DNA of 33,355 bases, taken from Comamonadaceae bacterium (GTDB lineage Bacteria > Pseudomonadota > Gammaproteobacteria > Burkholderiales > Burkholderiaceae_C). The notes under the pieces are model-generated. The model searched no databases, was not told the origin of the DNA, and saw only the letters and a program-made list of their open reading frames with translations. Positions 9,329 to 12,135 of the stretch are shown here, piece after piece. The DNA is taken from contig CANKRG010000021.1 in assembly GCA_947485165.1 (NCBI GenBank), positions 1 to 33,355 of the forward strand, written 5' to 3'. Numbering within the stretch: position 1 is the stretch's first letter; each line of letters opens with the position of its first letter. The translations under genes were made by a program, and so were the position numbers.

Positions 9329-10519
9329 TTAGTCTTCAATCAAAATCCGCAGCATACGGCGCAACGGTTCTGCCGCACCCCATAACAACTGGTCGCCAAT
9401 CGTGAACGCGCCCACATACTCAGGGCCCATTGCCAGCTTACGCACACGGCCAACTGGAATGCTCATGGTGCCGGTCACCTGCACCGGTGTCAGCTCGCGC
9501 AAAGTGGCTTCTTTGGTGTTGGGCACGACTTTGACCCACTCGTTGTCCGCCGCCATCATGGCTTCCAGGTCGGCCAATGGCACGTCTTTTTTTAGCTTGA
9601 AGGTCAGCGCCTGGCTGTGGCAGCGCATCGCACCGATACGCACACAAAAGCCGTCCACTGGTGTGGCAGCGCTGCCAAACATCGCGCCCTGGCCTAAGAT
9701 CTTGTTGGTCTCAACCCCGCCTTTCCACTCTTCCTTGGACATGCCCCAGCTGGCGTCGGTCTGCCCTTTGCCGACGCCCAAGTCGCTGTCAATCCACGGA
9801 ATCAGGCTGCCGCCCAACGGTGCGCCAAAGTTGGCGGTCTCAGCAGCGCTGAGGGACTGCTGTTTCGCCAGCACCTTGCGGTCGATTTCCAGAATCGCCG
9901 ATTTTGGGTCATCCAACAGCGTGCGGACTTCGCCGTTCAGCGTGCCGAATTGGGTCAACAGCTCGCGCATGTGCTGCGCACCGCCGCCCGAGGCCGCCTG
10001 GTAGGTCATGGTGGTCATCCACTCGACCAAACCGGCTTTGTACAGCGCGCCCACACCCATCAACATGCAGCTCACGGTGCAATTACCGCCTACCCAGTTA
10101 TTTAAGCCTTTGGCCAGCGAGTTTTTGATGACCGGCAAGTTCACCGGGTCAAGGATGATGATCGCATCGTCTTTCATGCGCAGGGTCGAAGCCGCGTCAA
10201 TCCAATGCCCAGTCCAACCCGCTGCGCGCAGCTTGGGGAAGACTTCAGCGGTGTAGTCGCCGCCTTGCGCCGTCAAAATGATGTCGCACTTTTTCAGCGC
10301 TCCAATGTCAAAAGCGTCTTTCAGCGTGGTTTCGTTCTTGGCGTAAGCAGGGGCTTTGCCACCTGCGTTGGAGGTGGAGAAGAACACCGGCTCGATGAGC
10401 GCAAAATCGCCCTCAGCCTGCATGCGGTCAAGCAGTACCGAGCCGACCATGCCGCGCCAGCCTACCAAACCCACGAGGGGTTCTCTAGCACCCGCTACGA
10501 GGTTACCTACTTTTTTCAT
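9329..10519 (-). CDS. asd: Aspartate-semialdehyde dehydrogenase
   Basis: [34 protein letters not shown] (catalytic Cys) and GAMRCHSQA. Confidence 0.95.
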
Positions 10520-10549
10520 TTTTAAGCGCCTTTCAAATTAATCAGTCTT

Positions 10550-10609
10550 GACTAATCCCCCGGCTCGTCTAGCTCCGGGGTGGGCGCGACGAACCGGGCT
10601 GGATTAGCC
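10550..10609 (-). promoter_or_regulatory. Long hairpin in the asd 5' region overlapping the leader ORF stop codon
   Basis: Minus strand GGCTAATCC-AG-CCCGGTTCGTC-(18 nt loop)-GACGAGCCGGG-GGATTAGTC; 9 bp + 11 bp paired with only G-U exceptions and a 2-nt bulge. Confidence 0.75.
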
Positions 10610-10705
10610 TTTAATGGTCGTCGTTTTGGTGGAAGTCTTGAACGCGCAAACATCCAGCGCGCAAGCGGCGAGGATGGTTGTTGTGGTGGTCACAGGGGCA
10701 TTCAT
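10604..10705 (-). CDS. Putative Thr-rich leader peptide upstream of asd
   Basis: 33-aa ORF MNAPVTTTTTILAACALDVCAFKTSTKTTTIKG, 10 Thr; 85 nt upstream of the asd ATG; TATAAT at 10718..10713 ends 7 nt before its ATG. Confidence 0.55.
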   Translation of the reverse strand: MNAPVTTTTTILAACALDVCAFKTSTKTTTIKG

Positions 10706-10712
10706 GACTTTA

Positions 10713-10718
10713 ATTATA
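10713..10718 (-). promoter_or_regulatory. Perfect TATAAT -10 box candidate for the asd leader transcript
   Basis: Minus strand CGGCTATAATTAAAGTCATG; no convincing -35 hexamer seen at 17 nt spacing. Confidence 0.5.
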
Positions 10719-11052: not shown

Positions 11053-12135
11053 TCAGCCCAAAGCCCTCAAAACCGCATCCCCCATCTCCACCGTGCTGAC
11101 CTTCGTCGTCCCCGCACTGTAAATATCCGGCGTCCGCAGCCCTTGCGTTAAAACGGCTTTGACGGCAGTTTCGATACGATCTGCAGCCGCAGCTTGGTTC
11201 AACGAGAAGCGCAACATCATTGCCGCGCTCAAAATCGTGGCTAGGGGATTGGCGATGCCTTTGCCGGCGATGTCGGGCGCGCTGCCGTGGCTGGGCTCGT
11301 ACAGACCTTGTTTTTTGTCGTTCAAACTGGCGGACGGCAACATGCCGATGGAGCCGGTCAGCATGGCGGCAGCATCAGACAGAATGTCGCCAAACATGTT
11401 ACCGGTGACGACCACGTCGAATTTCTTGGGCGCTTTGACCAGCTGCATGGCGGCGTTGTCCACGTACATGTGATCCAAAGCGACTTCGGGGTATTGCTTG
11501 CCTACCTCAGAAACCACGTCTTTCCAAAACTGAAAAGTCTCTAAAACATTCGCTTTGTCCACGCTGGTAACCCGTTTATCGCGTTTCATGGCGGCTTGGA
11601 AAGCGACGTGCGCGATGCGCTCGATCTCTGGGCGGCTGTAGCGCATGGTGTCGAAGGCTTCTTCAGCGCCGGGGAAGTGGCCATCGGTGGCGACGCGGCG
11701 GCCACGGGGCTGGCCGAAGTAGATGTCGCCCGTCAGCTCGCGGATGATCAAAATGTCGAGTCCGGCGACCAGCTCCGGCTTCAAGCTGGAGGCATCGACC
11801 AGCTCTTTGTAACAAATAGCAGGACGGAAGTTGGCAAACAACCCCATGTTTTTGCGGAGTCCCAAAATCGCCTGTTCGGGGCGTAGCGGGCGATCTAGCG
11901 TGTCGTATTTCCAGTCGCCGACCGCGCCAAACAGCACAGCGTCGGAATCCATCGCCAGCTTCAGGGTGGCCGGTGGCAGCGGGTGGCCGTGTGCCTCAAA
12001 CGCCGCGCCGCCGACCAGAGCGGATTCCATCTCCATCTTCAGGCCGAATTCTTTGTCGATAACCTTCAGGACTTTGACCGCTTCTGCGACGATTTCTGTA
12101 CCGATGCCGTCACCGGGGAGGATTGCTATTTTCAT
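11053..12135 (-). CDS. leuB: 3-isopropylmalate dehydrogenase
   Basis: [29 protein letters not shown] and [18 protein letters not shown] motifs. Confidence 0.96.

Follow-up and report, generated by a model that had tools for sequence, protein, structure and literature searches.

The minus strand of a Comamonadaceae genome (contig CANKRG010000021.1, positions 1 to 33,355; this whole stretch of 33,355 nt is called the window here, and all positions refer to it) carries a short, threonine-rich reading frame and a large hairpin upstream of asd, the gene for aspartate-semialdehyde dehydrogenase. The locus raises the question of whether this frame is a leader through which amino acid supply controls asd and, if so, at which level of gene expression such control would act. 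A first-pass annotation, made from the sequence alone, had proposed a Thr-rich leader and left open the choice between Rho access, RNA stability and translation; the data presented here favor translation. A ribosome-stalling translational attenuator of asd is, in our assessment, the best explanation and a likely one (probability of about 0.78), resting on comparative and computed evidence only, with no expression data. What has been shown, and what serves as the basis for this reading, is the conservation of the element, the joint presence of the peptide tail and the hairpin, the co-variation of the pairing arms, and the dependence of the predicted opening of the Shine-Dalgarno (SD) sequence on ribosome position. 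The comparisons span approximately 200 relatives, with a non-redundant set of 111 sequences.

The asd locus and its proposed leader reading frame

On the minus strand of the window, the order is leuC, leuD, leuB, 347 nt of intergenic DNA, the leader open reading frame (ORF), asd and fimV (Table 1). As read from the sequence, the leader ORF comprises 33 codons for 33 amino acids, 10 of which are Thr; such an ORF, followed by a hairpin upstream of asd, had been described in the first-pass annotation, and this part held. The distance had been given as 85 nt before asd, and 84 nt were measured between the leader stop codon and the asd start (ATG at 10519).

A TATAAT- or TACAAT-like hexamer ending 6-9 nt upstream of the start of the short ORF (sORF) is present at all 23 of the 23 inspected loci where the leader is a standalone frame, and no convincing -35 element was found upstream of the leader ORF. 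On the basis of the -10 spacing, the transcript is therefore predicted to begin at or beside the leader ATG, so that translation would be near-leaderless; there is no mapped start site. Such an arrangement has been reported for trpL of Sinorhizobium meliloti (PMC7298713), a leader ORF whose start coincides with the 5' end of its transcript (leaderless), although that system differs in responding to Trp, in acting by transcription attenuation and in belonging to Alphaproteobacteria.

Table 1. Positions of the genes, the leader ORF and the RNA segments in the window.
Feature	Position	Strand	Basis and remarks
asd, aspartate-semialdehyde dehydrogenase, proposed regulated gene	9329..10519	minus	TIGR01745, 574 bits
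GGCGC overlapping the asd SD (AAAGGC)	10526..10530	minus	folding, SD opening
P2 hairpin GATTAGTCA / TGATTAATT, 3' of segment 4 and 5' of the SD, predicted in both states	10536..10557	minus	folding; strongest co-variation of all helices; arms 10557-10549 / 10544-10536
Segment 4, GACGAGCCGGGG, predicted to pair with segment 2 or 3	10558..10569	minus	folding and co-variation
Segment 3, CCCCGG, predicted to replace segment 2 as partner of segment 4 in the completed (OFF) state	10575..10580	minus	folding and co-variation
Anti-SD, GCGCC	10583..10587	minus	stop-state partner predicted at 10530-10526; co-variation
Segment 2, AGCCCGGTTCGTC, predicted partner of segment 4 in the stalled (ON) state; a ribosome at the stop codon would cover half of it	10588..10600	minus	folding and co-variation
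Leader ORF, MNAPVTTTTTILAACALDVCAFKTSTKTTTIKG-stop	10604..10705	minus	ATG 10705-10703, TAA 10606-10604; read from sequence
Segment 1, GGCT (last codon and first stop base), possible partner of the start of segment 2	10606..10609	minus	arm-swap z -5.4; tentative
Control codons T K T T T I K G, immediately 5' of the stop codon	10607..10630	minus	Thr/Lys/Ile enrichment across relatives
Putative -10 box, TATAAT, 7 nt 5' of the leader ATG	10713..10718	minus	read from sequence
leuB	11053..12135	minus	TIGR00169; window copy ends ..RALG-stop, without tail

The end of the leader ORF and the hairpin are one conserved unit

The end of the leader ORF and the hairpin form a single conserved unit in Comamonadaceae-type Burkholderiales, far beyond what chance would produce. 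Eighty loci from named genomes were picked by Asd similarity alone, unselected for leader or hairpin. Both the tail rich in Thr, Lys and Ile and the hairpin were present in 72 of them, neither was present in 8 (L013, L022, L036, L047, L072, L075, L076 and L080), and one without the other was found in none. At the 72 loci, the last approximately 8 codons of the frame are nearly all Thr, Lys or Ile, mostly ending in Gly-stop or Ser-stop, and the hairpin follows directly on the 3' side. A covariance model of the leader end and the hairpin, R1, matches 120 of the 151 genomes of the window's family, or 111 of 141 genera; this model includes both parts, so the unbiased figure for their joint presence is that of the Asd-selected loci (72/80). 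When 20 family genomes negative for R1 were checked through Asd, readable upstream DNA was available in 16, of which 12 lacked both parts and 4 carried degenerate copies of both (L288, L291, L294 and L295). Lack of conservation in relatives was the first result that, according to the first-pass annotation, would have refuted the leader; the leader survived it, as the Thr codons of the tail and the hairpin are kept and the arms co-vary.

In L013 and L281, LeuB ends in ..AALN(Q/K)SKG-stop and the hairpin is missing; this ending may be left over from a tail since lost. At three others (L086, L092 and L096), leader and hairpin precede an Asd only about 65-66% identical to that of the window, most others in the family being about 80% identical or more, and the Asd proteins of L092 and L096 fall on a long branch near Burkholderia Asd. 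It is possible, judging from their appearance, that the enzyme gene was replaced at these three loci beneath an unchanged leader.

Conservation of the peptide is confined to its end. Relatives in the genus (L003-L005) and more distant ones share only the C-terminal TKTTTIKG-stop, in which synonymous changes such as ACG/ACA occur, and the front half varies freely; outside the tail, the leader ORF is fast-evolving and not conserved. The first-pass annotation had pointed to Thr runs at both ends, of which the C-terminal control codons are conserved, whereas the N-terminal TTTTT run, variable even inside the genus (L003-L005), had been overrated. Of the 8 positions preceding the last residue, Thr, Lys and Ile occupy on average 7.3 in standalone leaders and 6.9 in leaders fused to LeuB across the 111 non-redundant sequences, against a combined background of approximately 16% in the proteins of the window; Met accounts for about 1% or less of the control positions. 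The commonest Thr codon in both kinds of tail is ACC, and the control codons are therefore not rare ones. Apart from Met, the products of the aspartate pathway that depend on asd are Lys, Thr and Ile. The match between the control codons and these end products is counted in favor of leader control of asd, and the proposal of a Thr-rich leader with Thr, Ile and Lys codons upstream of this gene is strongly supported by the conservation of the ORF end and of the RNA structure.

A separate ORF is missing from 60 of the 111 non-redundant sequences, where LeuB itself is extended at its C-terminus by the tail, just 5' of the same hairpin. Such fused proteins end in ..MGDAVVAA-ITKKTITG-stop or similar, the usual end of LeuB being ..MGDAVVAAL-stop or similar. 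The remaining sequences have a LeuB with a normal end, followed by a distinct sORF. On the Asd tree, at least 8 changes between the fused and the standalone form are needed on the best tree, 2-3 per label being forced by well-supported branches, which makes it likely that the two forms interconverted more than once. Variovorax boronicumulans strain Xaverov (L010) has a standalone, Acidovorax-like leader, and its near Variovorax relatives (L007) have the LeuB-fused form; gene transfer or a recent switch may account for this case. A bolder reading, which we also regard as probable, is that LeuB doubles as a leader peptide, with an 8-codon Thr/Lys/Ile sensor grafted on its C-terminus in Variovorax, Ramlibacter, Piscinibacter, Ideonella and others. 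Each ribosome finishing LeuB would then report the supply of Thr, Lys and Ile to asd, and lineages would have switched repeatedly to and from a standalone, near-leaderless sORF.

An alternative explanation is that the peptide or the LeuB tail has a function of its own, as a small protein or an enzyme tail, and that the hairpin is an unrelated stability element. The conservation of the tail at the amino acid level with synonymous codon change speaks for it, and so does the location of the tail within LeuB in roughly half of the non-redundant sequences. Against it, neither tail nor hairpin occurs without the other, the sORF is unconserved outside its tail, the residues Thr, Lys and Ile occur in varying order among relatives, and the tail is held at a fixed distance from segment 2 (12-15 nt from the stop codon to TTCG in 99 of 111 relatives). 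We consider this alternative very unlikely.

Outside the window's family, many Burkholderiaceae have a standalone sORF upstream of asd, ending in ..ITKTITTKTIIKR-stop or similar, with an unrelated hairpin. This combination of a Thr/Lys/Ile-rich sORF and a different large hairpin (CTTCCCCGC..GCGGGGAAG) was observed at L253, L255-L256, L258, L260-L267, L269-L274, L276, L278, L280 and L105. Applied to the Burkholderiaceae leaders, the test for an SD switch described below found none (mean -0.4), and the mechanism is therefore not claimed for that family. In most other surveyed families of the order, asd lies soon after leuB and no leader was recognized; an exception is L136 (family f14), where an sORF ending in ..KRTTTIITKTVMKG-stop is located upstream of asd, possibly of independent origin. 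In the order-wide model search, L105 was the only match outside the window's family that precedes asd. The weak order-wide matches L098-L103 and others that were examined had neither an asd nor a leuB match and were discarded as chance hits.

Alternative pairings and the predicted opening of the Shine-Dalgarno sequence

The stem CCCGGTTCGTC (10598-10588) / GACGAGCCGGG (10569-10559) is present in the predicted minimum-energy fold (z -3.3 against shuffles). The first-pass annotation had placed the stop codon inside its 5' arm, which failed for the conserved part of the arm: the functional arm starts 6 nt 3' of the first stop base. Its alternative pairing of the 3' side with GACTGATTAA held and forms a second hairpin, P2. 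That annotation contained neither the pairing of the anti-SD with the SD nor the alternative hairpin formed by segments 3 and 4 (3:4), nor did it contain the near-leaderless promoter or the leader as a tail of LeuB. The pairing of segment 4 with segment 2 (2:4) and its pairing with segment 3 are predicted to be mutually exclusive, and a C-rich unpaired stretch lies between segments 2 and 3.

Two ribosome positions were represented in folding: for the stalled state, the folded RNA began immediately 3' of the first stop base, and for the stop state, 12 further nt were masked. In toeprints, the front edge of the ribosome lies 12 nt past the first base of the codon in the A site. With any of the tail's Thr, Lys or Ile codons in the A site, this edge therefore lies at most 6 nt past the first stop base (stop+6), and only the stop codon itself brings it to stop+12. 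In the window, the stalled-state fold consists of 2:4 and P2 with the SD free (z -3.3 against shuffles), and the stop-state fold of 3:4 and P2, enclosed by pairing of the anti-SD, 10587-10583, with 10530-10526 (z -3.1 against shuffles). The predicted cost of opening the SD of the window is flat, 0.3-0.8 kcal/mol, from stop-12 to stop+6 and reaches 6.6 kcal/mol at stop+12; the corresponding family means are approximately 3.4 and 5.2 kcal/mol. Across the 111 non-redundant relatives, the difference between stop and stall is +1.77 kcal/mol (s.e. 0.24), compared with -0.02 (s.e. 0.06) for shuffled spacers; it amounts to +2.4 in standalone and +0.8 in LeuB-fused leaders, each above shuffles. The strength of the switch is uneven, with about half of the 111 exceeding +1 kcal/mol and 8% going in the opposite direction beyond -1. 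This unevenness, the weaker effect in LeuB-fused leaders and the negative result in Burkholderiaceae count against the model. What a translational attenuator demands, an SD sequestered or open according to ribosome position, is thus met, by computation only. Folding included neither co-transcriptional kinetics nor pseudoknots, and a kissing pair between the anti-SD loop and the SD in the ON state falls outside the model. In Variovorax (L015, L029 and other loci), the predicted repressing helix reaches over the asd start codon (TTCGTCA with TGGCGAA).

Support for these helices came from arm-swap tests on parsed segments, in which the partner arm of each sequence was compared with an arm from another species; for all five helices tested, the sequence's own partner paired better. 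These tests took the place of pair counting on MAFFT alignments, which gave little covariation in the close set because segments 2 and 4 hardly vary there, and of RNAalifold, which returned only five pairs on a gappy alignment. The z values were -6.0 for 2:4, -4.1 for 3:4, -8.9 for P2, -3.9 for the anti-SD with the SD and -5.4 for segments 1 and 2 (1:2), with -0.1 for the control. Swaps restricted to nearest relatives limit the effect of common descent and gave p values of 0.006 for 2:4, 0.012 for 3:4, 0.004 for P2 and 0.014 for the anti-SD with the SD (control 0.36); the co-variation of this last pair is modest with relatedness controlled. The p values of the other shuffles and swaps are uncorrected for descent, and those of the nearest-neighbor swaps are corrected only in part. 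Matched changes can also be seen by eye, such as GGCGC with GCGCC in the window, L187 and L241, GGGCA with TGCCC in Polaromonas, and AGGCGCGCGACG with CGTCGCGTGCCT in L056. A 1:2 hairpin (GGCT/AGCC) looked good by eye and was not supported in the nearest-neighbor test (p 0.3).

In enteric bacteria, thrL is a short ORF with Thr and Ile codons, at which stalling selects between alternative hairpins. Classical transcription attenuation of this type, by an intrinsic terminator, is suggested for asd by the Thr and Ile codons and the mutually exclusive hairpins: enrichment of end-product codons is met, and exclusive hairpins dependent on ribosome position are met by prediction and co-variation. The intrinsic terminator is not. 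Of the 111 relatives, 105 have no U-run after the 3:4 hairpin and only 6 have TTTT close to the hairpin end, and no U-tract follows the hairpin of the window, so that the first-pass statement that the hairpin lacks a U-tract and does not fit classical attenuation held. Rfam covariance models, including Thr_leader and the asd motif RF01732, gave no match to the window at the gathering score or at E values up to 5, and the absence of a Thr_leader match also counts against this alternative, which we regard as very unlikely.

Another possibility is that the stalled ribosome or the alternative hairpins act at the RNA level, altering Rho access or mRNA decay and not access to the SD. The absence of a U-tract and the C-rich unpaired stretch between segments 2 and 3 are compatible with this; lost translation of asd would in any case expose its mRNA to Rho, and the SD switch is weaker in the LeuB-fused relatives. 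However, the anti-SD co-varies with the SD, and the predicted opening of the SD shifts as the ribosome moves from the last sense codon to the stop codon, neither of which would be expected were the SD irrelevant. Action at the RNA level alone therefore appears unlikely.

Proposed mechanism and its place among known leaders

According to the translational attenuator model, a ribosome would translate the leader ORF, which is the standalone sORF in the window and the end of leuB in many relatives. When charged Thr-, Lys- or Ile-tRNA is short, the ribosome would stall with its front edge no more than 6 nt past the first stop base; segment 2 would remain free, 2:4 would pair, the anti-SD would be held in a loop, and asd would be made from an open SD. 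When the tRNAs are charged, the ribosome would reach the stop codon and cover half of segment 2; 3:4 would pair, the anti-SD would pair with the SD so as to enclose the 3:4 and P2 hairpins, and asd would be repressed. Four parts of this model are inferred, namely that the sORF is translated, that ribosomes stall on it, that the RNA folds in this way in cells and that Asd is affected.

Similar to thrL, the asd leader is a short ORF with Thr and Ile codons before a gene of the same pathway. In contrast to thrL, it would control asd and adds Lys codons, which fits the position of asd above the Lys branch; it has no terminator U-tract and no Rfam match, the SD is its predicted target, and it may be part of leuB. 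In translational attenuators of the ermC type, a stalled leader ribosome frees the SD by changing the pairing of segments, and such stall-driven release is also proposed here; the signal, however, would be amino acid supply through control codons and not an antibiotic, and the RNA is specific to the family. The LEU element of Actinobacteria (PMC1262725) likewise combines a control-codon leader ORF upstream of an amino acid gene with a structure involving the SD. There, a run of Leu codons itself pairs with the SD and a pseudoknot is predicted, whereas the predicted SD partner of the asd leader, found in Betaproteobacteria, is a separate anti-SD outside the ORF, with switching between 2:4 and 3:4. 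The asd motif RF01732 (PMC2864571) is a structured RNA of Lactobacillales named for asd, and its covariance model does not match the window. No earlier description of the asd leader element was found in the open literature searched; many subscription papers were outside its scope.

If the model is correct, Burkholderiales would possess an amino-acid-sensing leader for the aspartate family that was not found in the literature or Rfam searched, predicted to act on translation and not on transcription. Its codons match Lys, Thr and Ile, the products below asd, which opens its logic to direct test. From the LeuB-fused form it would follow that the gene of an unrelated enzyme can carry a sensor as its tail; leaders of this kind would escape searches limited to short ORFs, and similar tails could be looked for elsewhere. 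The leucine and aspartate pathways would thereby be tied together at one locus.
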